A stretch of DNA of 64,000 nt from Ischnura elegans (lineage: Eukaryota; Arthropoda; Insecta; Odonata; Coenagrionidae). The stretch lies in NCBI RefSeq assembly GCF_921293095.1, contig NC_060258.1, forward strand, positions 2,046,001-2,110,000, written 5' to 3'. Made by a program: the position numbers and the translations under genes. This document shows positions 9,071-62,539 of this stretch, in pieces. The notes under the pieces are model-generated. The model had not been told where the DNA came from and did not search any database. It was given only the letters and a program-made list of their open reading frames with translations. The stretch's first letter is position 1. Every line of letters starts with the position of its first letter.

Positions 9071-10482
9071 TTAATTGCATGCATAAAATTTCTCCTCCGT
9101 ACGAGTCTGCAAGTGGCGGACAAGGCTGCTCCTAACAGAGAAAGACTTTTCACATTCACGGCAGGAATAAGGTTTCTCCTTCGTATGAGTTCGAATGTGA
9201 TGAACAAGTGTACTCTTTAGAGAGAAAGACTTTCCACATTCACCGCAGGAATAAGGTTTCTCCTTTTTATGAATCCTCATGTGACAGATAAGGTTGCTAC
9301 TTACAGAGAAAGACTTTTCACATTCGTTACATGAAAAAGGTTTCTCCTTTGTGTGAGTCCGAATGTGATAGACAAGGCTACTCTTTTGAGAGAAAGACTT
9401 TTCACATTCACCGCAGGCAAAAGGTTTCTCCTTCGTGTGAGTCCGAATGTGATAGACAAGGCTACTCTTTTGAGAGAAAGACTTTTCACATTCACCGCAG
9501 GCAAAAGGTTTCTCCTTCGTATGAGTTCGAATGTGATGAACAAGTGTACTCTTTCGAGAGAAAGACTTTTCACATTCACCGCAGGAATAAGGTTTCTCCT
9601 TTTTATGAATCCTCATGTGACAGATAAGGTTGCTACTTACAGAGAAAGACTTTTCACATTCGTTACATGAAAAAGGTTTCTCCTTTGTGTGAGTCCGAAT
9701 GTGATAGACAAGGCTACTCTTTTGAGAGAAAGACTTTTCACATTCACCGCAGGCAAAAGGTTTCTCCTTCGTGTGAGTCCGAATGTGATAGACAAGGCTA
9801 CTCTTTTGAGAGAAAGACTTTTCACATTCACCGCAGGCAAAAGGTTTCTCCTTCGTATGAGTTCGAATGTGATGAACAAGTGTACTCTTTCGAGAGAAAG
9901 ACTTTTCACATTCACCGCAGGAATAAGGTTTCTCCTTTTTATGAATCATCATGTGACAGATAAGGTTGCTACTTACAGAGAAAGACTTTTCACATTCGTT
10001 ACATGAAAAAGGTTTCTCCTTTGTGTGAGTCCGAATGTGATAGACAAGGCTACTCTTTTGAGAGAAAGACTTTTCACATTCACCGCAGGCAAAAGGTTTC
10101 TCCTTCGTGTGAGTCCGAATGTGATAGACAAGGCTACTCTTTTGAGAGAAAGACTTTTCACATTCACCGCAGGCAAAAGGTTTCTCCTTCGTATGAGTTC
10201 GAATGTGATGAACAAGTGTACTCTTTCGAGAGAAAGACTTTTCACATTCACTGCAGGAATACGGTTTCTTTGCTGTGTGTGGAGTATCTGTGCATGTTTT
10301 TCCATCTATAATGAAGCTTTTCCTCACTTCCCTCACATTTTTCTTCTCCTTTGTTCCTCCAAGGTTTTCCTTGAGAAGCCCTTTCCTTATTTTACCTCTT
10401 CTTTCTTTCCTTGAATTTGATGCTATAACATTTGGTTCACGGGGAACTAACAAATCTGAGGCTTTTTCAGAAGCTGGGAGAT
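9071..10482 (-). CDS. Terminal exon: 14 tandem C2H2 zinc fingers (ZAD/C2H2 gene, minus strand)
   Basis: Role: sequence-specific DNA-binding array, inferred nuclear transcription regulator. Seen: acceptor TTCTTTTCTAG at 10483, then AT completes a Gly-to-Asp split codon with the upstream exon (phase 1). A basic linker rich in Lys/Arg follows for about 70 residues, then 14 fingers of pattern C-x2-C-x12-H-x3-H with HTKEKP linkers (10264 down to 9089). Fingers 1-12 are three copies of a four-finger unit. Recognition positions (-1,2,3,6) cycle R/S/T/H, Q/S/S/Y, Q/S/S/Y, V/S/N/C. Finger 14 has Arg in place of its second zinc-binding His. Finger 15 is cut by TAA after its first Cys. Linkers are KEKP rather than the usual GEKP. 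It joins eight upstream exons into a frame of about 822 codons. Confidence 0.93.
9257..10264 (-). repeat. 336-bp higher-order repeat (four fingers) in three near-identical copies
   Basis: Period 336 bp = 4 x 84 bp. Copies begin at 10264, 9928 and 9592 on the minus strand. They differ at only a few bases; for example, one base gives Met instead of Arg in finger 4. Silent positions are also conserved. Within each unit, fingers 2 and 3 are themselves an almost identical 84-bp duplication. This is a recent unequal-exchange expansion, or possibly an assembly-sensitive array. Confidence 0.95.
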
Positions 10483-11310
10483 CTAGAAAAGAATTTTACA
10501 TTTAAAATAAGTAAAGTCAGACATGTTATCTATGATTCGATAACCTAATTTATAATAACCATTAGACAGATATCAAAGTTGCAACTTTAACCGATCTTTT
10601 GGTTAAATGCCACACACATTACAAATGTTGCAATTAATTTTTACGGTTGCTTCCAAATATTGCTTCACAATTGAGTGGCCTTGCTGCTCAGAGAAAATCA
10701 GTAAGGTATTACATACTAACCTCTAATATCTACACCATAAAACACCCCACTGCACAATTTCATGCAAAATGGCACTAGAGCATCCTAATGAAAAAATATA
10801 CATAGCAGTTATATGTAAATTAAATAGCTAAAAAGAATAAGTGAGCATGGGCTGGTCACCTGCTGTCATTATTTTCTAGAACTAAAACTTCTGCACACAA
10901 GGGAATGACATTGAGTTTTGCCTATTTTTAGCCAAATTAGTTTTTTTCATATTTATTTATTCCATGAATATATGTTTGACCTAAAAAAGCACAGTTTCCA
11001 TGAGCACAACAAACTGAATTGGATGGGCTACGTACAAAAGCAAAATTTTCCCAGTATTTCAAAACTGAACCAAACCAAACCGGGGATCGAGCTTTGCATA
11101 AGCATAAAATTTTCAGTGAAAATTATAGAAATATTGATGAAAAACAGGCTTCTGTGAAGTACAAAGTAGGATGAAAGTACGTTAAAATTTAATACGAGGA
11201 TCACAAAATTTGACTGAATCTCAGATCCAGTTTTGGGGCATTTGAATAATCAGAATTAGTTACAAGTCCTTTCTGTGAAGAGAAATTTTCAAGCACTCAA
11301 GAGCACTCAC
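10483..11310 (-). other. Intron between the short exon and the finger exon
   Basis: Bounded by a GTGAGT donor at 11310 and a TTTTCTAG acceptor at 10483; AT-rich, no other feature seen. Confidence 0.75.
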
Positions 11311-11383
11311 CCACTGCCTCCGTCATAGACTCCATGGCCGTTGCCTTATTCTGAATCAGCTCTTCATTTTCCATAGAAGTAGG
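11311..11383 (-). CDS. Short linker exon joining to the zinc-finger exon
   Basis: Acceptor ATTATTTTCAG at 11384, then 24 codons plus one base (PTSMENEELIQNKATAMESM, then TEAVG/D), and donor GTGAGT at 11310. It starts in phase 0 like the upstream exons and ends in phase 1, matching the finger exon, where G+AT makes an Asp codon. The acidic helix-like peptide resembles the other linker exons. It has no known domain. The exact phase match to the 10482 acceptor is the strongest support. Confidence 0.82.
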
Positions 11384-12086
11384 CTGAAAATAATCATTTA
11401 AGTATGAATGGACAGTTGATTGGAACTTTCTTAGCAGGTGATTGAAGACAACCAATTCTTAAACCATGTAAACTCACATATTAGCTTATATTTACAATGT
11501 GAACAAGAAATAGAGTAATAATATTTATGATAAAATATGTATTCTCTATTAATGACAGCAAATGTAAGGAAATCTGATTTTACATCCTTTGAAAACAATA
11601 TAAATCATAAACAGCAAATTGAATCTGTAGTTGACAATCATCACATTCCAAAGTATGCCTTCCTTCTCGACTTTCATACTAAAAATTGTATTAATTTATT
11701 TATGCATGAATTTATTATGTGAATTGAGCACTCTCAAAAATCGCCTTAACTATCATGGCATACCTTGTCACTCACGAAACATTGTCTACATATCGATACC
11801 ATTTTACGCTTTCCTTAGTAAGGACATATAATAGAGAACTGAAGTTTTCTCTAAATCATTCATATAAATTTCGGCTAGGACAGGTGACCCCACAGCTAGG
11901 CTATCTAATTATTTAAAGTGCTTGCCAAGATTTTTCTTAGTAAAACATAAGTCAAATACCATGCATGCATGCAACAACAAAAAGAAACAATCAACTTGTC
12001 TTGTGATATGAATGCACCTCAAAGAACTCATTTAGGCTGAAGTAACTTAAACCACACAAAGGAGTGTCATTTTATAATTGAAAACA
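11384..12086 (-). other. Intron sequence, no feature seen
   Basis: AT-rich, with a few short frames and no recognisable transposon or exon. Confidence 0.5.
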
Positions 12087-12689: not shown

Positions 12690-12713
12690 GAAAATTTGTA
12701 CAAATAATAAAGT

Positions 12714-13490: not shown

Positions 13491-13499
13491 TAATTTACT

Positions 13500-17123: not shown

Positions 17124-18189
17124 CTGTATATGAGTCCAAAATCAGCATCATTCAAGACAGAGATACAGAAATGTAGAAGTAACTTCGGGAGTTTACCAAA
17201 AAATAATGATTCTATTTATTGCATTGATATATATCTACAAATCACCCTAAAATATTCACTTTTGTAATATTCACATGTTAAAAGCTTGTGTGTGACATTT
17301 ATATGCACTAAATTGTACAATAGTGCATAAACCACATAGTGCTTGAAAAAGAAAAAAAAGCCACTCATCAAGAAAATGTAGGATTAATATCAAGTAAAAA
17401 ATCACTACTAATTTGAGAATGAATATATTTCTGATGCTTGAATGTGTGACTGAGACTTAGGTGTAATTTGAATTGCTTCAAGATTTTGTTGCCATCATTA
17501 TTCCTTACTTTGCCTTATCTTCTTCGCATGCAAAAAGTGATTGTACTCAGTTAATTACATCCACTAGGTGTTTTATTTATCTAACATCCTATTAGTCTTT
17601 GAAAATATAGATAAAAGTTTCAGTTTTCGGCACACCATATTTTCGTTAGCTCATCATACTGCAATGCCTGGACTTATTACCAACCTTGAATTCCCATGGT
17701 AGCCTTTTCAAAACTTCCTGCATTTCCTGGGTAGTAATCACTCTACCTGCTTTTTTTTACATTTACCCTACCATTCTATCATCTTCTAAGATTACCACAC
17801 TATACCGTGGGGTTGTAGTTCCACATGTCAGTATAGCATAGTTTGGAATTCTGTAGTGAGCTAGGCAGTAAATAGCTAAGGAGTATAAAGGAGCAATTCA
17901 TATCATGCAAGCAATAACTGCAAGTTTTCCTCATTCCACAGCCCATCTAACCTTAAGTACAATGGATATACTGCCCCTCTTTATGTACAAGAAGTAAGGC
18001 TAAAATAATTGTAAAAATGCTATTCCCATAACATTTTCATTTTTGGTGATCTTTTTAGAGGTGCATTGTGTAACTGTATTAAATGCTTATTATTTTAAGC
18101 ACACAAAATTTTGTTTTTAAGAGAAGAATCCTCACAGTTTTAATAAATGTTAAGGTTTACCAACACATGTGACTCAACAGTGCATGCAA
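17124..18189. other. Intron sequence, no feature seen
   Basis: AT-rich, with no splice-bounded frame or transposon end recognised. Confidence 0.45.
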
Positions 18190-18239
18190 CCAGCTCACAT
18201 TCACTGATCACCCTAAAAAGTAATGTATCTTTTAGAAAA

Positions 18240-18603
18240 AACCCCCGATGTTCATATCTGAGCGTAAAACTTGATAATGGAGTGTCTTGGGTGCAACATC
18301 TGCAGAAGCTCTGCAGAAAACATTAAGTCTACTGGTTTTTTGATTCTATCAGAAAAACTGTAGATATTGATGTATTGTTGTCAACTTATTATGGTGAGTT
18401 CTACCAGCCTGCAATGTTCAGTATCCTCCTCTGGGGCCCTAGATCCAATTATAAAATAATTTTCAAAATTCAAAAGAGGATACTGCAGATCTTAAGTAAA
18501 ATACCTTCATACACACCATGCCACCCTCTACTTCAAAAATTGAGCATATTACCTCATATTTGCATGTTTATGTATGCTGCAATTGCTTGTGCAAAATATT
18601 ATG
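18240..18603 (+). mobile_element. LINE reverse-transcriptase C-terminal relic
   Basis: Reads LDNGVSWVQHLQKLC, then LLSTYYGEFYQP, SILLWGPRSN, IFKIQKRILQILS and PLLQKLSILP in order. These are the thumb and post-RT segment of non-LTR retrotransposons (family pattern: YYGLFYP, GI.LWG, I..LQKRA.R, LF..L.IL). Stops interrupt the upstream part. It is truncated at 18604, where a pogo-like inverted-repeat element begins. The clade is probably Jockey- or CR1-like, from memory of the family pattern only. Confidence 0.75.
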
Positions 18604-21990: not shown

Positions 21991-22119
21991 CTGACTAGAG
22001 CCTTGGGGCACAAGTTCATTTGTGGCCCCATCAGTGCCATGAGTGTGCACATCTCGTCCTTCATCATCACTGACCTGATCAGCTTTTACAGAAGGGGACC
22101 CACATGCTCCTATGCCACT
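21991..22119 (-). CDS. Linker exon C2 of the minus-strand ZAD/C2H2 gene
   Basis: Acceptor TTTCTCTCAG at 22120, then 43 codons in phase 0 and donor GTAATA at 21990. The peptide starts SGIGACGSPSVKADQVSDDE and ends VPQGSSQ. It is one of three exons of family C in the window, with 25561-25692 (minus) and 62411-62539 (plus). All carry a VK.DQ.SDD core and a TDG..... tail. It is closest to the plus-strand copy, and the homology continues for hundreds of bases into both introns. Acidic, no known domain, inferred flexible spacer. Confidence 0.85.
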
Positions 22120-23110
22120 CTGAGAGAAAGAGAATTGACACTTAACTGTAAATTGTTTTAACCAATTGGTACCAGAAGTAAAAAGATCAAACCAAAACAT
22201 GAATTACAGGTGCTTGCATAAATCAAAAATTCCCTGAAAAGCTATAGTGACCTCAGAGAAGAAGGCGGGATAAATTTGTTAACTAAGAAAACATGGCCCA
22301 TTAAAATACTCAGCCTTTTCATTCAGCCATAGAAAACCTTCCTAAGATGGAAAAATAAAATTTATCAGCAATATTTTGAGACATGATGGTCTTATGACAT
22401 CATTCATCAACAACCAAGAATATTTGTCTAAACAAGCAGAAGGAATACAGAAATGTTGATTTCATCTGTGAAAGGTAATCATCATATTTTGTTTCAATCA
22501 CAGTAGAATATGTATAATATTAATAATATGTCTTAATTTGATGAGATTGGGACTAGAAAGTCCCGTTTTCCATCTGAGCCCTCATCAAACATGACGTTTA
22601 TGCAGTGAAATACATAATCAAGTTGACCATGAAATTATATGCAGGGAAATTACATGAACAGATGTGGAAGTTCCATTGTCAAACATCAAAAAAATCATAA
22701 GCTAACTAAGTTACCATTAACCAAGTGTAAAAAGATGTAAGCAAACGTGGGAAAAACCTAAGGATATTGATTGTCATCCTTATTGGAAAAAAACCCACTG
22801 CAGAACAACACCCACTCAAGGAAAGGGTGTAAAAAACCAGTGAAAACCTACCAACAAAGTGCTAATGTAAACCAGGGTATCTACAAATACAAGAAATTAC
22901 AAGTAAATTTCACCCAGTACCTGGAAATAAAAGGAAAATTAGATGAAGCCGGAGGATATCAGCGCTGAATCTGTTCCCATGATGTTACCTGTCTCATTGT
23001 TGTTCTCAAAGAAGTTTTACGTGTAGTGCCTGTTTGAAACATGCAGTGAAGATGATTTACATAGTGGTTAGTCAATGCAATAAATCTAATGCTTTCCCAG
23101 AGAATATACT
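22120..23110 (-). other. Intron with homology to the plus-strand paralogue
   Basis: The last 450 bp before exon C2 align with 62080-62410 of the plus strand. Examples are TCAAAATATTGCTGATAAAT and GAAGGTTTTC[CT]ATGGCT, and the polypyrimidine region. No separate gene is seen. Confidence 0.7.
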
Positions 23111-23290
23111 CGAAAAAGGCAATTCGGGCTTCCAGCCGGGTGGTCTCCCTCCATACTGCCGATGTTTTGGAATACAAGTCGGGTTCCATTGCCATCCTAT
23201 TAGCCCTGAGGATGGAAGCCAACTTGTGTTCCAAAATGTTGGTGGAATGGAGGGAGACCACCCGGCTGGAAGCCTGAATAGCCTTTTTCG
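23111..23290. repeat. Foldback element, about 85-90-bp arms
   Basis: The left arm (CGAAAAAGGCAATTCGGGCT then TCCAGCCGGGTGGTCTCCC) is the near-perfect complement of the right arm (GGGAGACCACCCGGCTGGA then AGCCTGAATAGCCTTTTTCG). Similarity continues through TTTTGGAA[TC]ACAAGT to a short centre near 23200. The RNA would form a stable hairpin. The many opposing frames here follow from the symmetry. Probably a foldback MITE. Confidence 0.85.
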
Positions 23291-23439
23291 GGTAGTCAAT
23301 GCTGTTCCATTTGCGACATGCAGTAACAATGAATCATTTATTAAATCTGACTGTCCGATTGCAAGGTATACATAGTTTTTCATTTCCCCCAGTATATGAG
23401 TCATGTACTCCACTAATTACAAACATACAACAAGCTCCA

Positions 23440-25560: not shown

Positions 25561-25692
25561 CTGATTGGAAGAGTCTTGATGTATCAGTTTGCTTGAGACA
25601 CCATCAGTGCAATCATTGAGTATATGTCCTTCTTCATCATCGCTAATCTGATCTTCTTTAACAGGAGAGCACTTGTATCTTACCGGATCACT
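25561..25692 (-). CDS. Linker exon C1 of the minus-strand ZAD/C2H2 gene
   Basis: Acceptor TTTCCAATAG at 25693, then 44 codons in phase 0 and donor GTAATA at 25560. The peptide begins SDPVRYKCSP, has the family core VKEDQISDDEEG and ends LIHQDSSNQ. It is a tandem paralogue of exon C2 with the same phase and similar donor context. Acidic spacer with no known domain; alternative splicing between C1 and C2 is possible because both are symmetric. Confidence 0.8.
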
Positions 25693-26776: not shown

Positions 26777-26890
26777 CAGGTCATCAGTGGCCAATGGGTC
26801 AGAGGCATCACTTCCAGCTGGATCTGACGTGTACAGCATGGGATTATTCTCCTCACTGAGGTGATCTTCATTCTCATCTTTTATATGAAA
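26777..26890 (-). CDS. Linker exon B of the minus-strand ZAD/C2H2 gene
   Basis: Acceptor CCTCTTCTAG at 26891, then 38 codons in phase 0 and donor GTGAGT at 26776. The peptide starts FHIKDENEDHLSEENNPM and ends ASDPLATDDL. The plus-strand exons at 49854-49973 (FHVKKENEDPLSEG...DPLATDEL) and 61366-61485 are clear homologues. The intron after the donor also aligns with that after 49973. Acidic with no known domain. The K-E/D-E-N motif resembles a SUMO consensus, but that is only a pattern. Confidence 0.88.
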
Positions 26891-27582: not shown

Positions 27583-27756
27583 CAACTTGTCATCCCTGGG
27601 AAGTAGGCAGTCTGGCACAGGAATGTATATTTCAGTGGTTTGGGCTGAGCAAGTGAGCTGTGAATTGTTTTCAATCACGTCTTGAATGCAGTCCGTAGTC
27701 TCCACACTGGCCTCAGGCCCCAAATTGTCATCAACTGCCCCTTCTCTTTCAAAACT
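27583..27756 (-). CDS. Linker exon A of the minus-strand ZAD/C2H2 gene
   Basis: Acceptor TTTGTCTACAG at 27757, then 58 codons in phase 0 and donor GTAAGT at 27582. The peptide starts SFEREGAVDDNLG and contains the highly conserved stretch AQTTEIYIPVPDC, ending PRDDKL. The plus-strand exon at 47278-47445 has QTTEIYIPVSDC in the same place, and a diverged third copy is at 44018-44224. Conservation of that stretch while the flanks drift suggests it is a functional short motif. In this gene it follows the ZAD exons across a 11.7-kb intron full of transposons. Confidence 0.88.
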
Positions 27757-28980: not shown

Positions 28981-29418
28981 ATGAATACCGAAATGGAGAT
29001 GATTGAGAGACATACCAAGAAGAAATTAGAACAGTACTTTGTGGCAAACTATATAGATACTGAAAGAAGAGTGGCAGTTTTACTGACTCTGGTTGGTGAA
29101 GAGGCATACAAAACACTGAAAGACCTGTGCAACCCGGTACTTCCCAGGGAGAAATCTTATGACCATTTGTGTCTCATTTTAAAGCAGCATTGCTCAAAGA
29201 GGATATCAGTATTCAGAGAAAGAATTGAATTTTATGAGGTGCGGCAATCAGCGCAGGAGACTGTTTGGGAATGGTATGCCCGGATGAAGAAGAGGGCCGG
29301 TGACTGCAAATTTGGAACTATGCTCGACGAGATGCTAAAGGATGAATTTATTTGTGGATTATCAAGAGGACCGATTCTGGATAAGCCGTGTGAAGAAGAC
29401 CACACTACACCACAGTAG
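28981..29418 (+). pseudogene. Gag fragment of the gypsy relic
   Basis: About 145 codons with the helical capsid pattern of Ty3/gypsy Gag (KKLEQYFVANYI-like, AVLLTLVGEEAYKTLKDL, RERIEFYEVRQ). A reading-frame break near 29005 separates it from the apparent N-terminus at 28884, and a stop at 29416-29418 precedes a shifted continuation at 29342-29569. Structural protein in the family; not functional here. Confidence 0.75.
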
Positions 29419-33426: not shown

Positions 33427-33578
33427 TGTTAAGATTAAGAACATTTTTGTTAATTACGCAGTTCTTTTGTTTTGTATTTTTGATGTTCGTCTGACTCAGA
33501 AATAAAAGTCAGTCTTTCTTCTGCTCGCAACATGAACAGACCTGTTTCATTTCCCTGTGCCCTCTAACTTTTTTATCA
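33427..33578 (+). repeat. 5' LTR of the copia element, 152 bp
   Basis: Starts TGTTAAGATTAAG and ends TTTTTTATCA (TG...CA ends). AAATAAAAGTC near 33502 could be the TATA or polyadenylation element. It is short for copia LTRs. Confidence 0.95.
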
Positions 33579-33595
33579 GGTTATGGGCCCGGATA
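33579..33595 (+). promoter_or_regulatory. Primer-binding site matching the initiator tRNA-Met anticodon arm
   Basis: GGTTATGGGCCCGG directly follows the LTR. The complement of the initiator tRNA-Met anticodon stem-loop is GGTTATGGGCCCAG, so 13 of 14 match. Drosophila copia is known to prime from an internally cleaved half of this tRNA, so the same mechanism is inferred here. Confidence 0.8.
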
Positions 33596-33629
33596 CGATA
33601 GTTTAAATTTTAAACTTAACGAGTTAAGA

Positions 33630-36600
33630 ATGGCGAGCGATCAGGGGACAAATGTGTTAACCGTGGCTTCCAACCACTTGCCTCCAATAGACAAACTTGA
33701 AGGAGAGAAAAATTGGGAAAATTGGAAATATTTAATGGAGCTTTACTTGGGATTGGACGATCCTTACGAGTGCGTGTTGAAGCAGCCACCCGAATCAGTC
33801 CGAAATAATCCCTCATCTCCTGAAATGAAGAAAGACAATAGAGCCCGCTCGAAAATCTCTCTCATGGTGCAACCTCATCTCATAATTCACGTGAGGTCGG
33901 CCAAAACCGCCTACGAAGCATGGAATAACCTGTGTGACGTGTTTGAAGACAGAGGGGCATTCAGGCGCATTTGTCTGTTTGATGAATTGTTGGACACTAA
34001 ACACGACAATTTTAGTTCACTCTTAGATTATGCTATGGCCATGAAGAATATCATCTATAAAATTGCCGAAACCGGGAAACCTGTTGATGATGAGTTTGCG
34101 GCCTTCGTAATGTTAAAAAATTTGAGGCCTGACTACAAATGGCTTCGTCAGCTTACAGAAAAGAGTGTTAAGAAAGAAGAGGACTTGACGCCAATAGCGG
34201 TTTGCAATGAGCTTGTGCGAGAAGGACAGAAGGAAGCGGCGGAGACAGGGGGTGCAACCAATCAGGCGCTCCTAGCCGGCACAAGTAGGAACCAGCGTCG
34301 CGGTTCGTCATCCAGAGTAAAGTTCAGTGGAAGAGGTGAAGTAGCATGCGGAAGTGCAATGGCAACTTCACCAGGAGCGGTCCAGCAGGCGACAAAACGG
34401 CACCAGAACCAGTATCATCGTGGCAGCCAACATGGTGTGACCTGCTATTGTTGTAAGAGACCTGGCCACATAGCTGCCAGGTGCTGGTTTAAAGGAGAAG
34501 GTAAGAGAGGATGCAGAAATGATGGTGGTGGAGAAGAGGGTTCAGGCACATCACCCTGGAGCCTTATAGCTGCTATGAGTGCTGTGAGTAACAAAAATTG
34601 CTGGTACATTGACTCGGGTGCTTCAACGCATATGAGTGGCAATAAAAGTTGGTTCAATTGGTATATTGAAACAGATAGTAAAGCTGTGAGTTGCGCTGGC
34701 AATGAAACACTGAAAACAGCTGGTATTGGTAGTATTAGTGTTAAGGGTATCAACGGCTTAAGTGCCATTAAAGATGTTGTTTATATCCCAAAACTTTCAA
34801 CTAACTTACTGTCTGTTAGTGCAATGGTTAAGAATGGCCTGATTCCTGTTTTCTCTCCAGATGGTTGTAGTGTATATAATAAACATGATGTCTATATCAA
34901 GGGTGTCCCCCTGCTTAAAGTCCCTGAATCGGGTGGAACTTACAAAATAGATTTCGATGTAAATCCAGTAGCCATGCTAGTAGAAGATGCAAAAAATTGT
35001 GATTTTAATCTGTGGCATCAAAGGTTAGCTCATTTAAGTAGGAGTAACATGATCCGCATGTCAAAGGGTCTAGTAAATGGTCTTGTCCTGAATCCAGAGT
35101 GCATAGACATTGAATGTGATAGCTGCATAAGGGCCAAACAAATAAGAGCTCCATTTCTAAGGGGAAGGGCTGAAAGAGCAAAAATCACTTTAGACCTTAT
35201 ACACTCAGATGTTTGTGGCCCACTAGACTAAACATCCTTTGGAGGGCATCGATATTTTGCAACCTTCATTGACGATAAGACACGATTCACATTTGTAGCC
35301 TTACTTAAAACGAAAGGTGAGGTATTTGAAAAATTTAAGTTGCATAAAAAACTGGTGGAGAAGCAAACAGGAAAAGCTATCAAATGTTTAAGGTCTGATA
35401 ATGGAGGGGAATACTTTTCCAAAGTGTTATCTGAGTTTCTAAACAATGAAGGCATCCAACGGCAGTCTACTATCCCTGGAACACCTTAGCAGAATGGAGT
35501 AGCGGAGAGGGCTAACAGAACAATTTTAGAAAAGAGTAGGGCTATGCTAAAACAAGCTGGTCTTGATAACAGGTACTGGGGGGAAGCAGTTAATACTGCA
35601 GTTTATCTTAAAAATCTGTCTCCTACAGTGGCATTAAAAGGAAAGGTTCCATTTGAAGCATGGACAGGAAGGAAAGTCAATGTTGGTCATCTTAAAGTTT
35701 TTGGATGCAGTGCTTATGTTCATATTCCAAAAGAAAAAAGTAAGAAACTTGGTGATAGAAGTAGAGAGTGTATATTTGTGGGGTACGATAGTGAAAAGAA
35801 AGGGTACCGTTTAATTGATCCCAAAAATCCTTATCAAATAGTGTTGGAAAGAAGGGTATTGTTTCACTAAAAAAGATTTCCAATGAAAAATCTACTAGGT
35901 GATAATGAGGGTGTTGTTGGGTCTCCTGATACCTCGGAGATATTAATTCATGTCCCAACTAAGCCTAAAGAGATAGATATAGAAATCCAGAGAGACCCTG
36001 AAGATGACAATTCGGGGGGATCACAGACCTCTAATGACAATACTGAAAATTCTGTGGAATTAAGAGAACGTAGATATCCATTAAGAGACAGAAAACCCTG
36101 TGATTACTCTGACTATTTGGTGTACAAAGCTGAACTGGAGAGCATGAATGATGAACCCGAAAAGCGAGAACAAGCGTTAGCTAAATGGGATAAAGCTCAC
36201 TGGAAAAATGCAATGGATTAGGAAATGTCGTCCTTAAGAAAGAATAAGGTATTTACTTTAGTTCCTAGACCTACAAATGTGAATGTTGTACAAAATAGGT
36301 GGGTATTCAAATTAAAAACTGGTCCTGATGGTACAATTGATAGATATAAGGCTCGTTTGGTGGCAAAAGGATATACTCAGATGCAGGGCTTAGATTATAT
36401 CGACACATTCTCTCCTGTTGTTAGAGCTGAAAGCTTAAGGTTAATTCTGTCTTTAGCTGTAAACATGAATTTATTTATAAAACATATTGATGTATGTACG
36501 GCTTTTCTAAATGCTGAATTAGAAGAAAAAGTGTACATGGAACAGCCAGAGGGTTATGTTGATCTTGACAATCAGGAAAAGGTATGTTTATTAAAAAAGG

Positions 36601-37679
36601 CTATCTATGGATTGAAACAGTCATCTAGATGTTGGAATGCCAAGTTACATGAGATATTAATGTGTTTAAACTATGTCAGATCAAAGGGTGACCCTTGAGT
36701 TTATATGAAGCATAAGACTCATCATGTATTAACTATTATTGCTGTGCATGTGGATGATGTATTTATTATTTCTAATGATCAGGATGAAGTGAAAACTGTA
36801 AAATTGACATTTCAAAAGAATTTTGATTGCAGAGATTTGGGAAAACTTTCAAATTTTCTAGGTATTGAAGTGGAATATTGTGAAGATGGGAAAGTCAAGC
36901 TTTCTCAAAGATCTTATTTAAATAAGATCCTAGAAGGGTTTAATATGAAGGACTGTAATCCTGTTAGAACACCAATGGAAAAGGGCATTTGTCTGGAAAG
37001 AAATGCTGGTCCTAAACCAAATGTACCCTATCAATCTCTAATAGGTTCGTTAATGTACTTAAGTGTATGGACTAGGCCAGATATTGTGCAAGCAGTAAAT
37101 TACCTAAGTCAATTTAATGCTTATTATGGGGCTCAACATTGGAATTGTGCTAAAAGACTACTTCGATACTTGCAAGGAACCAAAGAATTGGGTTTAATAT
37201 TTAAAAAGGGTAACAATGAATTGTGTGGTTACAGTGATGCAGATTGGGGAAGTGACACTGTTGATAGAAAATCCTACTCAGGGTACTTCTTTGCATTTTC
37301 TGGTGGACCAATTTCTTGGCAGTGCAAAAAGCAGTCTGTGGTAGCACAATCAACAACAGAAGCTGAATACATTGCACTCAGTCAGGCCTCCAATGAGGCC
37401 ATATACCTGCAAAACTTGTTAAAAGAACTTGTTAAAAAGGATTTTGTTGTGACTATGTTTTGTGATAATAAGTCAGCTGTATTTTTGTCTATGAATGCTG
37501 CCTACAAAAGGAGGACAAAACAAATAGATTTGAGTTATCATGTTGTGAGAGACTTGGTGGAAAGAAAAAGGGTGTTAATAGAGCATGTTCCAGGTGAGAA
37601 GATGATTGCGGACATTTTCACCAAGCCACTTGTGGGATCACGCTTTAAGTCTTTGGTAGAATTATTGGGAATGCAATAA
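33630..37679 (+). pseudogene. copia gag-pol, one frame with five in-frame stops
   Basis: Start ATG at 33630. In order: Gag (WENWKYLMELYLG...; 33630-34430), zinc knuckle CYCCKRPGHIAARC (34441-34482), protease WYIDSGASTHMSG (about 34600), GAG pre-integrase FNLWHQRLAHLSR (about 35005), integrase (35150-35870), reverse transcriptase (36225-36800; catalytic box HVDD) and RNase H with YSDADW and TTEAEY (about 37230-37370). Stops lie at 35229-35231, 35487-35489, 35868-35870, 36219-36221 and 36696-36698, all in one frame with no frameshift. Two are in or near the integrase core and one just before the RT active site. The copy cannot make its own Pol unless the stops are suppressed. Confidence 0.95.
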
Positions 37680-37689
37680 CTGCTGAATT

Positions 37690-37699
37690 AAAGGGGGTG
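37690..37699 (+). promoter_or_regulatory. Polypurine tract of the copia element
   Basis: AAAGGGGGTG immediately precedes the 3' LTR, the expected position for the plus-strand primer. Confidence 0.85.
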
Positions 37700-37853
37700 T
37701 GTTAAGATTAAGAACATTTTTGTTAATTACGCAGTTCTTTTGTTTTGTATTTTTGATGTTCGTCTGACTCAGAAATAAAAGTCAGTCTTTCTTCTGCTCG
37801 CAACATGAACAGACCTGTTTCATTTCCCTGTGCCCTCTTTAACTTTTTTATCA
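37700..37853 (+). repeat. 3' LTR of the copia element, 154 bp
   Basis: Identical by eye to the 5' LTR except for an extra TT (CCTCTTTAAC against CCTCTAAC). Ends TTTATCA, then the target duplication ACAAT. Confidence 0.95.
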
Positions 37854-39496: not shown

Positions 39497-39634
39497 CCTG
39501 AAGTAATTTCTGGACGAAAATTTTCTCAGTTCTGCGTCCGATTCATGACAAATATTCCTGAAATCGTAGAATTCAATGATCTTTTTCAAGCACAGTGGAC
39601 ATAAAGTGGCAGGCAGGCCATCTCCCACAGCAAC
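39497..39634 (-). CDS. ZAD exon 2 of the minus-strand gene
   Basis: Acceptor CCTTTCTTAG at 39635, then 46 codons in phase 0 and donor GTGAGT at 39496. It supplies the second half of the ZAD: VAVGDGLPATLCPLCLKKI, with the second C-x2-C zinc pair, then EFYDFRNICHESDAELRKF. This matches the family pattern DGLP..IC..C...L...Y.FR..C..SD..L. ZADs are homodimerisation modules at the N-terminus of many insect C2H2 proteins. Gene context, with fingers far downstream on the same strand, agrees. Confidence 0.93.
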
Positions 39635-39752: not shown

Positions 39753-39920
39753 TTTTAAGTGGACTAAATCATATAAGGCATCCCCTACAGTTATCTGGCT
39801 TGCTACAATTGAAGTGAATATGTTATAATAATAATCATTTTTCTTCATGCAAAGTCTGCATGGGGTGCCCTCAGAATTCCTGTCTAAAGAATCCGAGTAA
39901 TTCCCGAAGGTAGCACTCAT
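39753..39920 (-). CDS. ZAD exon 1 with the start codon, minus-strand gene
   Basis: ATG at 39920 begins MSATFGNYSDSLDRNSEG, followed by the first zinc pair CRLC and the ZAD helix FTSIVASQITVGDALYDLVH. It ends in phase 0 at the GTAAGT donor (39752). With exon 2 it makes a complete ZAD of about 75 residues with both C-x2-C pairs. The start is chosen because the plus-strand paralogue begins at an equivalent ATG (41000) and because the first Cys of a ZAD usually lies within about 20-30 residues of the N-terminus. The 5' UTR is not resolved. Confidence 0.92.
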
Positions 39921-40999: not shown

Positions 41000-41152
41000 A
41001 TGAGTCGCACCAGCGGGATTTTCACGGAATCTTCAGGAAGGATTTGCTGACTTAGTAGGAAAAATCATGATAATTATTACAACATATTCACTTCGGATGT
41101 AGCATGCAAAATAACTGTGAAGGATGCCCTACATGATTTAGTCGGCTTACAT
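41000..41152 (+). pseudogene. Broken ZAD exon 1 of the plus-strand paralogue
   Basis: ATG at 41000 and GTGAGT donor at 41153 match the minus-strand exon 1 in layout. NYYNIFTSDVACKITVKDAL, then HDLVGLH, aligns with its ZAD helix. However, the first zinc pair is destroyed: the Arg codon of CRLC is TGA (41048-41050) and the second Cys codon is AGT. In the plain reading the protein would stop after 16 codons. Either the gene is a pseudogene or it starts elsewhere without this half of the ZAD. Confidence 0.82.
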
Positions 41153-41558: not shown

Positions 41559-41693
41559 ATTGCTGTGGGAGATGGCCTGCCCACTACCAGACCAGTGTGC
41601 TTGAAGAAACTTACGGAATGCAGTGTTTTGAAAAAGATTTTATCATCATCAGACGCGGTTCTGACCGAAAGTTTGCCGAGTAGTTGCTGCAGG
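41559..41693 (+). CDS. Degenerate ZAD exon 2 of the plus-strand paralogue
   Basis: Acceptor AATATCTCAG at 41558, 45 codons in phase 0, donor GTGAGT at 41694. It begins IAVGDGLPTTRPVCLKKL, close to VAVGDGLPATLCPLCLKKI, but one codon shorter, and the first Cys of the second pair is gone (RPVC). The later conserved FR..CH is also lost. The frame is open, but the ZAD cannot bind zinc normally. It is best viewed as an exon under relaxed constraint. Confidence 0.75.
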
Positions 41694-44017: not shown

Positions 44018-44224
44018 GTACTTTCTCTGAAAGGAAATGAGGCGGCTGGTGACGAGTGGGATTTTTCTTCAGATACGAAGGGCTGCATGGGGGCTGTGAA
44101 GTGCCTTCATTCGCATCTGCATTCGAAATGCGGTTGGAGGCACTTCACAGCTCACATACTTTGTCCTTACAACTGTGTCACGCATTCTGTACCAGACTGT
44201 AATCTACTGAGAGCCAATGTATTG
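44018..44224 (+). CDS. Diverged extra copy of linker exon A (plus-strand gene)
   Basis: The 5' intron end (AGTTGCTTATC...TACTTTCTCTG) and the exon align with exon A at 47278. GGTGA[CT]GA..., the run to GGGCTGC, GGCACTTCACAGCTC and GTACCAGACTG are shared. With the acceptor ATCACAG at 44017 the exon is 69 codons in phase 0, ending ANVL before a GTTAGT donor. The original acceptor position reads CTGAAAG and seems lost. The conserved TTEIYIP motif is gone, and an imperfect palindrome (GTGAAGTGCC...GGCACTTCAC, 44098-44149) sits in the middle. It may be a dying exon. Confidence 0.5.
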
Positions 44225-45774: not shown

Positions 45775-46368
45775 ATAGTTCTGTTTGATTTGTCTATAGT
45801 GTTTATAAATTTGAATAAGGATATCATGAATCAATGTAAATCACCATTATACTCCAAAACTGATAATATGGTAGTGCATCTGGGAAGACTTCCTGAATGG
45901 ATCAGTGAACAAAAAACGGTGAAAGTGTTGATAAAATCTCAGGAATGTGTAATTACCTCTCTACCATCTTCTGTAACATGGAAGGAGTATCGATTTATGA
46001 ACAGCTTTTGTGGGAAAAACTTGTTGCCGTCACAAAACCAAGATTTGGTCAATGGCCAGAGGTTAACTCACTCTACTGGTGGGAACGTGACAGTGAATTT
46101 CATGGCCAAGTTACCTGATGACATAAATTATTGTTGTAAAGTAATAGGGGCTTGCATTAACCCTTTCTTTGGATTTGATTTGTGTCATCATGCAATCGAC
46201 TTACTGAACAATGAGGCCTTCCAGTGTCTTAGAAAAGTACAGGAGAACATTGATTTTGTGCTTAGCATGGCCATCACTGAAGCTCAGTGTTCTGATGTAG
46301 AGTGCAAAGAATGTATATTGCTGATGGATGCACCGTGGCTAGCAGCATCAAATCCTGGAGGCAGCCTG
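45775..46368 (+). CDS. Long open exon of unknown family (plus-strand gene)
   Basis: An uninterrupted frame of up to 204 codons (from 45757) ends in GGCAGCCTG before a consensus GTAAGT donor at 46369, in phase 0 like every other exon of this gene. The nearest phase-0 acceptor is AAAAAGCAG at 45774 (weak tract); AATAAG at 45822 is an alternative. Segments include HLGRLPEWISEQKTVKVLIK, FMAKLPDDINYCCKVIGACI and the Cys-rich CSDVECKEC. I recognise no domain. No equivalent was found in the minus-strand gene, whose matching intron is filled with transposons. It could be a genuine extra exon or an unrelated captured fragment. Confidence 0.5.
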
Positions 46369-47277
46369 GTAAGTTTTTGAGAGCACCAGGGAAAAGGTGG
46401 GAGTGAAGTTAAGTGGAATACATGTGGTCAAGTTATTAAAGAGTGAGGAGACATAATTTTGTTCTGGTAATGGTCCACTGAGTAATAGGAAAGCAGAATG
46501 TGGTAAAGACTTTTGTGGTCGGGGATGCATGGGTTGCAGATAGAAAGTTAAGGGGAAGTGTGTGCATTGTGGCCATGCTGATTGCTGTTTTCAAAACCTT
46601 CTTTAACTGCTTCATATTTTACCGCAAGAGACTCCATTTTCCTAACAGATTTTAGTGCTGAGAGATCATCTGAGAAGGGAGGGATCAGTTTGATGGCAGT
46701 CAATAGTGCATAGTATTGGGGAAATATTAAGATTCTTTATTGGTAGCCTATTAAGTATTCAGGGAGTGTGTTGTTCTCCAATATGTATCCTGTTACCTGG
46801 TCGATGGGAAAAGCTGGTTTGCTTAAAAAGTGTTAAATCTCTTTCTCTCTCCCAATGTTGAAATTTCCTTTGCTGCTTGGTAATTCATGGAAGAGGCTCA
46901 GGTATTCAGCCAAAATGACCCTTCTCTGCTTCACGTCTCTCTTTTCCAGCAGTTATATGGGTAGAATTCTTAAATAAACCAAAGAATAAAATGTTAGCTG
47001 AAGAGTACACCTTAATAACCATACCTCTGTACGTGTACTATTGTCACCCTGAAATGTCCTCACCAACGCCTCGTGACAGTGTTTTCTAGGTCTTTGTCCT
47101 TAAATGCAGTTGAAGTGGAGTGGCTTAGCAATGCATGCTTGGTCCTTCAATCTAACATAATCTTTTCTAGTAATAGAGGTAAGATTTCAAAAATCCTGTT
47201 TCATTATATCTAGGTGTGCCCCTAATTTGTTGACTTTGAAGAAGGTGAGTTGTTTATCTCCATTACTTTCTCTGCAG

Positions 47278-47445
47278 AGTATCAAAGAAGAGGAGACAGG
47301 TGATGACAATTTACGGTCTTCTACTGACTCACAGGACTGCTTCCAAAGTGCAAATGAAGGCACTTCACAGCTCCCATGTGCATTCCAAACTACTGAAATA
47401 TACATTCCTGTGTCAGACTGCCAAGAAACGAGACCAGATGCTTTG
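47278..47445 (+). CDS. Linker exon A of the plus-strand paralogue
   Basis: Acceptor TTTCTCTGCAG at 47277, 56 codons in phase 0, donor GTAAGT at 47446. It starts SIKEEETGDDNLRSSTDS and keeps the family motif FQTTEIYIPVSDC, ending TRPDAL. It aligns with the minus-strand exon A (AQTTEIYIPVPDC) and the first bases of both following introns (GTAAGTTTTATTCT). Acidic spacer with an IKEEE patch, no known domain. Confidence 0.86.
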
Positions 47446-49853: not shown

Positions 49854-49973
49854 TTTCATGTGAAAAAGGAGAACGAGGACCCTCTCAGTGAAGGGAATTA
49901 TCCTGTGATGTACACTCCAAATCCACTGGAAATTTCAAGAGATGTAACAGATCCATTGGCAACTGATGAACTG
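49854..49973 (+). CDS. Linker exon B1 of the plus-strand paralogue
   Basis: Acceptor CTATTCTAG at 49853, 40 codons in phase 0, donor GTGAGT at 49974. Begins FHVKKENEDPLSEGNYPVM and ends TDPLATDEL, matching the minus-strand exon B (FHIKDENEDHLSEENNPM...DPLATDDL). The intron after the donor also aligns. A second plus-strand copy follows at 61366. Acidic, no known domain. Confidence 0.87.
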
Positions 49974-54826: not shown

Positions 54827-55024
54827 GAAGAGTATGTGGAGGAATTGGGTGCAGAGGAGGGGCCGTTTGAAGGGACGGTGGGTAAGGAAGAGTGGTATGA
54901 CGAGTATTATGAAGGGGGTTATGAGGAAATGATGGAAGAGGACACTGCTGAGGAGGGGCAACTAGATGAAGTAATGGATGTGAGAGCCGCTCCTGCAGAT
55001 GGCAGTGCGGTTGCTGTTGCACTG
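54827..55024 (+). CDS. Highly acidic exon D of the plus-strand gene
   Basis: Acceptor TGCCCCCTTGAAG at 54826, 66 codons in phase 0, donor GTGAGT at 55025. Begins EEYVEELGAEEGPFEGTVGK, continues EEWYDEYYEGGYEEMMEEDT and ends SAVAVAL. Nearly half of the first 50 residues are Glu or Asp, with regularly spaced Tyr. The type is seen in acidic activation or chromatin-binding tails, but no family is recognised. No counterpart was found in the minus-strand gene. The higher GC than the flanks and exact splice frame support coding. Confidence 0.75.
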
Positions 55025-55799: not shown

Positions 55800-56640
55800 T
55801 CAATAAGAAGGTTCGAAGTTGCTTCTTTGGATATGCATCGTGAACTATCTCTTGCCAGAGGGTTCAAAGTTGCTTCATAGGACATGCATTTTGCACAACC
55901 TCTGGATAGATGCTTCATTGGGAAGGTTCAAAGCTGCTTCATAGGATATGAATTGTGCACAACCCCTGGCTAGATGATTCATTGGGAAGGTTCAAAGCTA
56001 CTTCATAGGACATGCATTTTGCACAACCTCTGGCTAGATGATTCATTGGGAAGGTTCAAAGTTGCGTCATAGGACATGCATTTTGCACCACCCCTGGCTA
56101 GATGCTACATTGAGAAGGTTCAAAGTTGCTTCATAAGACATGCATTTCGCACTACCCCTGGCTAGATGCTACATTGAGGAGGTTCAAAATTGCTTCATAG
56201 GATATGCATCATGCTCTACTCCTGGCTAGAAACTACATTGAGAAGGTTCAAAGTTGCGTCATAGGACATGCATTTTGCACTAACCCTGGCTAGATGCTAC
56301 ATTGAGGAGGTTCAAAGTTGCTTCATAGGATATGCATCGTGTACTACCCCTAGCTTGATGCTACATCGAGAAGGTTCAAAGCTACTGCATAGGACATGCA
56401 TTGTGCACAACCCCTGGCTAGATGATTCATTGGGAAGGTTCAAAGTTGCTTCATTGGATATGCATCGTGTACTACCCCTAGCTTGATGCTACATCGAGAA
56501 GGTTCAAAGCTACTTCATAGGACATGCATTTTGCACTACCCCTGGCTAGCTGCTACATTGAGGAGGTTTAAAATTGCTTCATAGGATATGCATTGTGCTC
56601 TACCCCTGGCTAGAAACTACATTGAGAAGGTTCAAAGGTG
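55800..56640. repeat. Minisatellite, unit about 65 bp, about 13 copies
   Basis: The unit GAAGGTTCAAAGTTGCTTCA then TAGGACATGCATTTTGCAC then AACCCCTGGCTAGATG.TTCATTGG repeats head to tail, with substitutions alternating between variants (AGATGATTCATTGG and AGATGCTACATTGA). A degenerate prelude with TTCAAAGAA/GATGTTCT motifs starts near 55635. Frames through it are artefacts of the period. Confidence 0.92.
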
Positions 56641-56745: not shown

Positions 56746-57769
56746 ACATATAGATTTAACTTCATATCGACATATCATGATAGGGGGATGTAGTTTTGCA
56801 AAATAAGTTATATGTATGAATAGTACGTTGCCTTCTAGCATACTGTTAAAAGCCCTATCCCAGCAACTACAGTAACAGGTCTGCAAAAGATATCTATAAA
56901 ATGCACAATTTTATCGATCATAATTTCAACTGTAATAACTGCATTAGTTTTCTTTAACTTATATTTTGTTTTGTAACTTATTTTTATTTACCAGTTAGAG
57001 TTTCAGTCCCTCACCTAAATAAATAAAAAAGATATAAGGGAAAAATCGAATTTCCAGCATTTTTGATTCGATTTTTTTTTTCAAGAAAATGTGTCAAGCG
57101 GAATGTGCATCATTGGTAAATGTGACCTATCTGTCAAAGATTATGTCTTTATATTTTTATTAATATGGCAGGAGAGGAAACTTGTATAAAACGATTTTAG
57201 TATATTCCCATTTACTTTACATTGAAAATATATTTCGGCATAAAGTTAAAACTATGGTTGCCATGAGATAACAGAAATCTAAAGTTACCAATCACGTACT
57301 ATCCTGAAAATTTCGGGCAGGAACGGTCGGGCTTTGTGAACTCCCATGTTAAAACAAGGTAGCCTCCCCTCACCCCCCCCCCCCCCCACTTTTTCCTTAG
57401 ACGTCGTAGTAATGGTAACTTTCATAGATGGCAGAACTAGCAATTAGCGGAAAAACTGGTTATTCAATTATGTCATCCAGTGTCCGCAGTAATAGTAATA
57501 CTCGCATTTCCTGAAACACAAAACTTTTTGTTTCTTTTAAATAAAAACCTATATTAATTAAACTTTAAGTCATTTTTATTGATACAAACAGTAATGCATA
57601 AAAAACAAGGCAACATTAAAATTTGAAAAAGATCACTAAAAAACGATAGATCACCACTTCAAGGCCTAACGTTCGAAACAGTTTTCTTAAAAATGAAAAT
57701 ATACTAAGGCAGTTAAACAGCGTCACATTCAGGGATAAGGAAAGAAATATCGCTAACTCTAACACATTG
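56746..57769 (+). other. Intron sequence with a poly-C tract
   Basis: A run of 14 C lies at about 57376-57389; otherwise AT-rich and featureless. Confidence 0.5.
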
Positions 57770-58545
57770 AGCAAAAGACAGTTGTGAATGCAATGCATTA
57801 ATAGGTGCATGAACAATGAATAGCAATCAGACAACTCGCTTAAACACTTGCATATGAAGCAAAAAACAGTACACTCCAGCATAACCATGCAAGACAATTA
57901 AACCAACAGGCAGTCAGAGGCACTTCAACACAATCAGCAAAGGACAGTTGTGAATGCAATGCATTAATAGTCATGTGAACACTGAATAGTTATCAGGAAA
58001 CTCGCTTAAACACTTGGATATGATGCAAATGGCAGTAGGTACATCCCAGCATAACCATACAAGACAATTTAACCAACTGGCAGTCAGGGGCACTTCAACA
58101 CAATCAACATGAATGGCAGTTGTGAATGCAATGCATTAATAGGCGCATGAGCAATGAATAGCAATCTTACAGTTAGCTCAAACACTAGCATATGAAGTAA
58201 AAGTCAGTTCAACGCAGCATAACCATGCAAGACAATTAAATCGACAAGCAGTCGGAGGCACTTCGACACACTCAAGAAAGGGCATTTGAGAATGCAATGT
58301 ATTAAAATAGGTGCGTGAGCAATGAATAGCAATCAAACAACTAGCTCAACTCTGGCATATGAAGCAAATGGCAGTACACCACAGCATAACCATGCAGGAC
58401 AATGAAACCAACAGTCGGAGGCACATCAACGCAATCAGCAAATGACAGTTGTAAATGCAATGCACTGAAAGGCGCGTGAGCACTGAATATAAATCAGACA
58501 ACTGGCTTTAGCACTGACATACGAAGCAAAAGACAGTACGCCACC
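57770..58545. repeat. Tandem repeat, unit about 168 bp, about 4.6 copies
   Basis: ACAGTTGTGAATGCAATGCA recurs at about 57779, 57946, 58116, 58284 and 58446 with CATAACCATGCAAGACAATT and CAGAGGCACTTCAACACAAT in each unit. Copies are diverged by roughly a tenth or more by eye. The unit length is in the range of nucleosomal satellite DNA. Confidence 0.9.
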
Positions 58546-61215: not shown

Positions 61216-61365
61216 TCATTTTAGATTGTCTCTAAAATCTTATGCAAACATGATTTCAGCCAGCTCGAGTAGTCTCAGGTGAAAGAGAAGGTTTTATTGT
61301 TATTTTTTATAATTATTTACATTTTTATTTTTCCCCATTGATTGGCACCCAGCATTATCTTCTAG

Positions 61366-61485
61366 GTATCTGTGAAAGAGGAGAACAAAGACCCTCTCAG
61401 ATATGATAATTATCCTGAGATATACACACCGTATCCAGCTGCAATTTCAAGTAATGCTTTGGATCCATTGGCAACTGACGACTTG
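61366..61485 (+). CDS. Linker exon B2 of the plus-strand paralogue
   Basis: Acceptor ATCTTCTAG at 61365, 40 codons in phase 0, donor GTAAGT at 61486. Begins VSVKEENKDPLRYDNYPEI and ends LDPLATDDL. It is a tandem copy of exon B1 (49854) and a homologue of the minus-strand exon B. VKEEN and DPLATDD are the most conserved pieces across the three. Acidic spacer, no known domain. Confidence 0.85.
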
Positions 61486-62410
61486 GTAAGTTCATGTTTG
61501 CTTTGTTAAGCATAGCTTTGCTACTACACAAATTTAGTCCTCCATGGATAAATTCAATATCATTTGCCATACTAAAAATGCCTTTTCCATTCCTTCATCA
61601 AATGATATAGTAAATGTTAGATGTGTCGTAAGTCTTAATTAGAACTTTCAGTGTTACTCATCATGTTGGTTAAAGAAAAGCTCCTCCACTATGTTGACAT
61701 GCTAATTTTTTGCTAACCCCTATGTTTCCTGACCTATTTTGGTTGCTTTTTCAAGGAAGATTAAGGGAATCACAGTTCCTTAAGTTTTGGAAAATTGGAC
61801 CAAATGTTTTTTTAAGTAACAAAGTAATATGTCATTCTTGACGAAATCATTCAAAATGAATGGGTCATTGCACTGAACAGAATGGGGGCATACAGCTGCT
61901 CTGATCACACACCTTTGCTCACTGAGCAAGTGATACCATCTTTGGAGAGGGTATTGGATGTTGGCAAACCAGGTTGGTTGTTGACAGGCATCAATTATTT
62001 TCTGTAAGCTGATTTTGATGGAGCATGCTATATGTTCAACTTTGATTGAAATAAAATGTAATGGTTTCCTTAAATGGATGAAATCAACATTTTTGTCTGG
62101 ACATGTAGACAAAAATTCTTGGTTGCCAATGAATGATGTCATGAGACAATCATTTCTCAAAATATTGCTGATAAATTTGTTCTTTATTCTTGGGAAGGTT
62201 TTCCTATGGCTAATTGGAAAGGCAGAGTAACTTAACGGACCATATCTTTTTGGTCAATAAATTTATCCTGCTTTCCTCTCTGAGGTCAGAATAGCAATTC
62301 AGGGAATTTTTCATTTGATTATACATTTGATGTTTTGGTTGTGAACTTTTACTTCTCGTGCCGATTTGTGAAAACCCATAGCAATTTAGTGTTAATTCTC
62401 TTTTTATCAG

Positions 62411-62539
62411 AGTGGAATGGGAACATGTGGGTTCCCTTGTGTAAAAGTAGATCAGATCAGTGATGATGGAGGAGGATATGTGCACAATGATAGCACAGAT
62501 GGGACCACAAATTGCCTTGTGGCCCAAGCCTCTGTTCAG
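62411..62539 (+). CDS. Linker exon C of the plus-strand paralogue
   Basis: Acceptor CTTTTTATCAG at 62410, 43 codons in phase 0, donor GTAATT at 62540. Begins SGMGTCGFPCVKVDQISDDG and ends LVAQASVQ. It is closest to minus-strand exon C2 (SGIGACGSPSVKADQVSDDE), and both introns align as well. By the order in the other gene, the F exon, the phase-1 exon and the fingers should follow beyond 64000. Confidence 0.86.

Follow-up and report, generated by a model that had tools for sequence, protein, structure and literature searches.

In a 64,000-nucleotide stretch of damselfly (Ischnura elegans) DNA, hereafter the window, we find a head-to-head inverted pair of ZAD-linker-C2H2 zinc-finger genes whose counterparts recur on one small chromosome and some unplaced scaffolds. 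With a probability of roughly 60%, we hold that the pair arose by inverted duplication and was then amplified as a unit, and that its intact copies encode fast-evolving DNA or chromatin binders. The window corresponds, we infer, to 2.046-2.110 Mb of the chromosome 13 main scaffold (C13:2046001-2110000); the genome searched comprised 1,722,721,009 bases in 110 contigs, C13 accounting for 21,320,372 bases. In the accessible parts of the published descriptions (the form in which all sources are cited here), chromosome 13 of assembly ioIscEleg1.1 (1,723 Mb, 110 scaffolds) measures 21.32 Mb, the smallest tabulated (PMC9975421), and is given in fragmented form, as a main scaffold plus several unlocalised scaffolds (PMC10781644). 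Contigs C14, C16 and C17 are probably unlocalised pieces of this chromosome. Exons were called from sequence and splice sites (score weights taken from general knowledge), and the exon letters A, B and C are labels of the present analysis, not those of the original prediction made on this DNA.

Results

An inverted duplication of an entire gene

The reverse complement of bases 1-40460 was aligned against the remainder of the window (E ≤ 1e-3), yielding 15 inverted high-scoring segment pairs (HSPs), 11 of which fall into a single collinear chain; none of 2000 order permutations attained a chain of 11. The opposite orientation gave three HSPs as a control, and a reversed, uncomplemented null gave none, such that the head-to-head inverted duplication proposed originally is real. 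The prediction had extended it to the whole gene and had suggested looking beyond 64 kb for a plus-strand finger exon; this exon is present, and the plus copy has a matching exon E beyond the window as well (Table 1), hence the entire gene was duplicated. Inverted homology runs well past 62539, reaching the plus finger exon (~74% identical to its minus counterpart across a 435-bp block that includes the preceding intron) and a distal block at 87.1-87.8 kb (6073-5333 against window-equivalent 87085-87844, 80% identity). The two starts lie 1.08 kb apart as described (ATG at 39920 on the minus strand and at 41000 on the plus strand, 1079 bp in between), and two further subfamily-1 copies, L028 and L011, match this spacer at 89% and 91% identity.

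Other details of the prediction had to be amended. The two exon series are indeed collinear, but run ZAD1, ZAD2, B, A, C rather than with A before B; the phase-0 reading does not apply to the finger exon, into which a 73-nt exon leads in phase 1; and homology does extend through introns, although 382 bp rather than 450 bp align before exon C, in a flank of 75-80% identity depending on the aligner. Twelve exons were splice-scored, the ten internal ones having lengths that are multiples of three and the remaining two being first exons. In exon complement, the minus copy has two C exons, and the plus copy has two A exons with one live and one decayed B.

The minus gene retains the intact ZAD claimed for it, a member of zf-AD (PF07776) at 53.9 bits against a Pfam cut-off of 28; both zinc cysteine pairs (CRLC, CPLC) are kept, and zinc binding is predicted from them. 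By sequence, this ZAD is also weakly similar to chain 7pok_A (LD15650p; E 0.0041). Counting bore out the 14 fingers of the minus copy, the final one closing with R, not H. Usable acceptors of the finger exon demand a phase-1 intron and the linker donors are in phase 0, a mismatch that is settled because the 73-nt exon E shifts phase 0 to 1; the minus exons thus stand in order on one strand, with phases compatible through exon E into the finger exon in the genomic sequence. A direct splice from C2 to the finger exon was rejected, the well-scoring acceptors there being in the wrong phase, and a minus acidic exon (17123-16995) was set aside as lacking a counterpart in the inverted homology found. 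Two decayed fingers lie beyond the minus finger-exon stop (window 9070-8948, minus strand).

The plus ZAD is broken, as had been noted: a TGA follows the first cysteine, two of the four zinc cysteines are gone, and a Pfam zf-AD search with this ZAD returned no match at E ≤ 10. Downstream of it, linker exons B2, A1, A2 and C are open with good splice sites, and one finger lacks a cysteine (CNEW). The extra plus exons claimed in the prediction fared unevenly, in that the second A and a decayed B are present but the acidic exon is unsupported; the latter (54827-55024) was rejected, antisense controls splice-scoring equally and no inverted HSP covering it. Nor does the extra A appear to be an addition to the plus copy, since its flanks point to an ancestral exon that is missing from the minus copy. 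Having lost its ZAD, the plus gene of the window is either pseudogenic or codes for a finger protein that lacks this domain. Decayed fingers are found beyond the stop of the plus finger exon too, and a 216-aa open frame between B1 and B2 (window 45730-46380, plus strand) matches no Pfam family over cut-off.

The pair recurs as a unit

The pair core (window 39400-41800; best 40 of 1024 candidates scored) is found at at least 39 further places on C13, C14, C16 and C17, the main matches being 88-92% identical and their side pieces falling to 83%. A 22-base ZAD-exon-2 tag common to both arms (≤2 mismatches allowed) occurs at 562 genome sites, which are sites and not proven genes, versus 0 for a reversed control. 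The 100 sites among the matches listed are all exact, 51 on C13 (0.09-7.72 Mb) and 49 on C14; 56 of these pair up head to head (28 pairs, partners within 4 kb of each other), and among the 100 no two neighbouring sites lie close together in another orientation. A plus-arm tag detects 116 sites (control 0), 100 of them, among the matches listed, on C13 (<7.8 Mb), C14, C16 and C17, and the plus-arm stop pattern detects 28 (control 0), two counts from separate patterns whose ratio of 28/116 is approximate. Because the stop pattern occurs at 28 genome sites, the plus ZAD stop most likely did not arise in the window copy; in 8 of the 28 sequences the stop is present with the second cysteine codon still TGT, and the stop therefore probably preceded the cysteine change. 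A zf-AD profile search of the genome (best 150 of 900 candidates scored) gave 146 matches, 12 of them on C1, C2, C6, C8, C10 and C11 and the remaining listed ones on C13-C17. Beyond 7.8 Mb, C13 carries no pair-family tag among the matches listed; other zf-AD matches reach 21.3 Mb. The window had been called a snapshot of paralogue divergence, a description that overlooks what matters most: far from being local, the pair is an old arrangement and a single copy of an amplified unit.

Twenty-eight loci were compared, L009-L018 being the best-scoring pair-core matches and L022-L027, L030 and L031 having been chosen (not at random) for their paired look among the zf-AD matches; five (L001-L004, L007) had no match to the ZAD exons of the window. 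In the window and nine further copies (L009-L018), the ZAD of the minus-type (M) arm is stop-free with four cysteines and the plus-type (P) arm has the same stop. Both ZADs are intact in L028 and L029, in which the plus-arm cysteine pairs are kept by sequence, L005 and L006 show, besides an M arm, the beginning of a P arm that lacks this stop, and L008 has an M-type arm only. A ZAD tree of 26 rows (omitting both arms of L011, L012, L014, L018, L029, L023, L025 and L026, the P arm of L015 and the partial P arms of L005 and L006) recovers the M arms, 10 in all, as one clade (100/99) and all 6 P arms as a second (100/98). Subfamily-1 ZADs group by arm and not by locus, which indicates that the amplification came after the inverted duplication and that the pair is the copied unit.

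Loci L022-L027, L030 and L031 constitute a second subfamily in which both arms are intact. In seven of the eight loci, identity between its arms amounts to 94-96% across ~620 bp (93% over 3469 bp in L030), a likeness that fits arm-to-arm conversion. None of the ZAD rows read, 14 from M arms and 12 from the second subfamily, contains a stop, and the ratio of non-synonymous to synonymous differences per site (pN/pS) among copies is 0.57 for M-arm ZADs (9 unique of 14 rows) and 0.43 for the second subfamily (12 unique rows; L025 and L026 not entered), values that suggest constraint.

Finger arrays differ between copies

Contact positions in the fingers are given by the usual C2H2 numbering. The minus array reads (RSTH QSSY QSSY VSNC) three times followed by LSTH VSSR, its four-finger module of 336 bp being threefold repeated; units 2 and 3 are the same, and unit 1 departs from them at 2 nt, neither change being synonymous. 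The finger exon was searched for in the genome with its first 97 aa as query (best 150 of 3323 candidates scored), 149 of the 150 matches falling on C13, C14, C16 or C17 and one on C19; 149 are stop-free within the match, the C19 match having two stops, and the open frames have a median of 466 aa. In two paralogues with 98% identity over the query part, the arrays have 10 and 9 fingers, versus 14 in the window, with the same contact quartets; between close copies, finger number therefore shifts by one four-finger module and by a single finger. Eight other arrays (the window plus arm and L037-L043; three identical) have at most one quartet in common with the minus array, and the window plus arm has none. 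Predicted DNA contacts are thus different in more distant copies, and these comparisons indicate that finger arrays turn over fast.

History and selection within the window pair

Flanks of the A, B and C exons were compared in three-sequence trees, which assume roughly equal rates. Plus A1 groups with minus A, leaving A2 as the outgroup (two-against-one columns 45, 18 and 22; bootstrap 0.998), and plus C groups with minus C2 to the exclusion of C1 (91, 34 and 18; bootstrap 1.0); the B flanks give no clear grouping (46, 36 and 37; bootstrap 0.74). The extra A exon probably predates the duplication and was lost from the minus copy. Between arms, pN/pS is 0.55 for the A exons (three pairs pooled, the pairs not being independent; 0 of 1000 bootstraps ≥1), 0.75 (0.53-1.12) for the ZAD and 0.70 (0.43-1.16) for B2. 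Neutral-decay simulation under assumed indel rates gave probabilities of staying open by chance of 0.002-0.018 for ZAD2, B2, A1, A2 and C1, and of 0.13 for plus C. The motif psi-K-x-E/D, which we take to be a SUMO site motif, is present in seven of eight linker exons; the observed 3/3 in one representative set was attained by 5 of 20000 shuffles, and 2/3 in the other set by 124 of 20000. A SUMO-site reading of the linker exons is a lead only.

Mobile elements, repeats and feature coordinates

A copia-type element bounded by long terminal repeats (LTRs) lies in an intron of the minus gene (Table 1). Its LTRs are substitution-free and differ by a single 2-bp gap, and the plus copy can be aligned over the unoccupied site (65% identity, 264 columns); on both counts the element is younger than the duplication. 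Its gag and pol are spread over several frames with stops between. A second retroelement remnant (28981-30950, plus strand) has a CCHC knuckle and a reverse transcriptase over the Pfam cut-off, with gag below it. Related fragments (74-75%) occupy an equivalent place in both arms (18088-18599 and 62949-63457); they have no Pfam match, presumably resemble the end of a non-LTR reverse transcriptase, and were probably carried along by the duplication. Tandem arrays with units of 64 bp and 166 bp (55857-56637 and 57761-58539) lie between plus A1 and A2, and palindromes are found at 38072-38191 (near-perfect, 95%) and at 23107-23294 (80%), the latter within a minus-copy stretch missing from the plus copy. 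Scans of the window for Rfam families and tRNAs gave no match.

Table 1. Features of the head-to-head pair (window positions unless otherwise given).
Feature	Position	Strand	Basis or remark
Minus exon 1: ATG, first ZAD half (CRLC), ends ..HLK/GTAAGT, phase 0	39753..39920	-	sequence and splice sites; Pfam zf-AD on spliced ZAD
Minus exon 2: second ZAD half (CPLC), phase 0 at both ends	39497..39634	-	genome zf-AD match C13:2085521-2085628
Minus linker exon B	27583..27756	-	homologous to plus 47278-47445
Minus linker exon A (IKDE...DPLATDDL)	26777..26890	-	sister of plus A1
Minus linker exon C1, probably ancestral extra C	25561..25692	-	flank comparison
Minus linker exon C2, partner of plus C	21991..22119	-	flank comparison
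Minus 73-nt exon E, shifting phase 0 to 1, compatible with finger exon	11311..11383	-	length and splice sites kept in plus copy
Minus finger exon, 14 fingers	9071..10482	-	open frame, finger motifs
Spacer between start codons	39921..40999		1079 bp
Plus exon 1: ZAD half, in-frame TGA 41048-41050, second Cys to Ser	41000..41152	+	sequence reading
Plus exon 2: ZAD half, one codon shorter than minus, RPVC replacing CPLC	41559..41693	+	sequence reading
Plus exon B1, decayed, normal acceptor missing	44030..44218	+	splice reading
Plus linker exon B2 (IKEE)	47278..47445	+	splice scoring
Plus linker exon A1 (VKKE)	49854..49973	+	splice scoring
Plus linker exon A2 (VKEE), branching outside plus A1 and minus A	61366..61485	+	splice scoring, flanks
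Plus linker exon C	62411..62539	+	splice scoring
Plus exon E	about L019 5643-5715, ~5.6 kb past window end	+	73-nt length and splice sites conserved
Plus finger-exon frame, 453 aa	C13:2118360-2119718 (window-equivalent 72360-73718)	+	alignment to minus finger exon
Copia-type LTR element in minus ZAD2-B intron	33427..37853	+	ACAAT target duplication

Discussion

In the model that we favour, a single inverted duplication would have generated a head-to-head pair of complete ZAD-linker-C2H2 genes with a spacer of ~1.08 kb, and this pair would then have become the amplification unit of the first 7.8 Mb of C13 and of C14, C16 and C17 (among the sites listed), copying presumably proceeding via large segmental duplications. 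Pairs with a broken plus arm would have been copied together with their intact minus arm. The minus protein would dimerise through its ZAD and read DNA by its fingers, the threefold four-finger module suiting a DNA target with a ~12-bp repeat, and the wider family may consist of fast-evolving, sequence-specific chromatin or repressor proteins. By analogy, intact copies would be proteins like the Drosophila ZAD members, among which homodimerisation through the ZAD is described (PMC5509000, PMC9531945) and whose roles include transcription, chromosome architecture and heterochromatin (PMC5509000, PMC7655104, PMC9531945).

Several observations weigh against this model as it stands. Kimura two-parameter (K2P) distances between the non-coding parts of the arms are uneven (ZAD 0.45 and 0.65, one intron block 0.34, B2 0.65 and A1 0.41, falling to 0.18-0.31 in six blocks around and beyond C), so that arm-to-arm conversion or else a further event has to be assumed; synonymous differences follow suit (3.3 of 30.4 sites in C versus 41 of 94 in ZAD2, B2 and A1 combined; Fisher p 0.0008), and conversion between the arms of the window, or a second event, is likely. 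Exon C appears free of purifying selection between arms (pN/pS 1.8, 0.79-7.6), and its identity of 82% compares with 80% in its flank. The spacer is conserved no better than the rest of the pair core, such that sharing of a promoter by the two genes lacks support. In the ZAD tree, the 10 second-subfamily rows form a third clade (100/99) with the arms intermixed, and the ZADs of some copies are identical, which may reflect duplication in the assembly. The pN/pS ratios, being computed on recent copies, are a rough test only, the 150 scored finger exons are the best candidates, and the gene models, including the splice from ZAD to fingers, are predictions from DNA sequence.

Four other explanations were weighed alongside the amplified pair. 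An ordinary local paralogue pair, formed by one inverted duplication here and diverging since, would account for the inverted chain within the window but is very improbable, as at least 39 further places match the pair core (mainly at 88-92%), ZADs from different loci group by arm type and the plus-arm stop pattern is found at 28 sites. Inflation of the copy number by the assembly, through unresolved haplotypes or misjoined repeats on chromosome 13, is rather more plausible yet still improbable: the chromosome is fragmented into main and unlocalised scaffolds (PMC10781644) and identical ZADs do occur (for example L013/L014 and L028/L029), but 9 of 14 M-arm ZADs and 12 in the second subfamily are unique, and the main core matches differ from the window by 8-12%.

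The remaining two concern what the copies do. That the plus gene works without a ZAD from an internal start, its product competing with that of the minus gene, would be in keeping with a finger exon open for 453 aa and with B2, A1, A2 and C being open with good splice sites; we regard it as unlikely, given the finger that lacks a cysteine (CNEW), the decay of B1 and a start and transcript that are hypothetical. Somewhat less unlikely, though still short of persuasive, is that most amplified pairs are dead passengers of segmental duplications on a repeat-rich chromosome, as the plus ZAD stop at 28 sites (plus-arm tag 116), the decayed B1, the neutral look of exon C and the transposons and satellites of the window would suggest. 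Set against this are the 149 of 150 scored finger exons that are stop-free with a median frame of 466 aa (the best of 3323 candidates), and ZADs with pN/pS of 0.43-0.57 that are stop-free in 14 M-arm and 12 second-subfamily rows, albeit that intact copies are favoured here, the finger exons having been taken from the top of the candidate ranking and the loci located through a ZAD match.

A bolder and, to us, doubtful proposal is that chromosome 13 is largely the habitat of a self-amplifying ZAD-finger pair, with one arm free to decay and copies reading different DNA, silencing or organising the repeats of the chromosome or acting as drivers, and with a possible link to the colour-morph locus. 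Speaking against a repeat-silencing role, dipteran ZAD-ZNF numbers do not track transposon numbers, and Drosophila ZAD proteins were not seen to target transposons specifically, as far as the accessible text of one study reaches (PMC10547256). The colour-morph locus contains three zinc-finger gene models that are common to all morphs and expressed; these are also on chromosome 13, but on unlocalised scaffold 2, whereas the window is on the main scaffold (PMC10781644). Those models may belong to the gene family of the window.

The open-licence literature covered, mostly as abstracts, does not report a head-to-head pair as an amplification unit, nor does it describe a ZAD-finger family on damselfly chromosome 13. 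The genes described here resemble Drosophila ZAD-ZNF proteins (Oddjob/Nicknack, Kipferl, Pita, ZIPIC; PF07776 plus C2H2) in having an N-terminal ZAD with two cysteine pairs, a linker and C-terminal fingers. As in that family, of 91-98 genes, 37 of 91 lying in 13 clusters as tandem arrays, they are clustered and fast-evolving, with neighbours of common exon structure (PMC7655104, PMC5509000). In contrast to the Drosophila genes, a ZAD-exon-2 tag alone marks 562 places here (sites rather than proven genes), and copying involves a head-to-head pair.

The KRAB-ZNF genes of mammals and the FINZ-ZNF genes of fish have an N-terminal domain that differs from the ZAD. They form large, lineage-specific and clustered C2H2 sets (PMC10547256); the family of the window is likewise large and, within this one genome, clustered, and it may be lineage-specific too. 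Unlike in those families, the unit copied here is an inverted pair with a fixed spacer. Both are tied to transposon control, and dipteran ZAD genes, in the accessible text, are not (PMC10547256). Expansion and clustering of ZAD-finger genes were already known, and what appears new, against the literature covered, is a fixed head-to-head pair amplified over a small chromosome and related scaffolds, its many copies in one genome providing a test bed for gain and loss of units in finger arrays, for conversion between arms and for the tracking of repeats by such genes.

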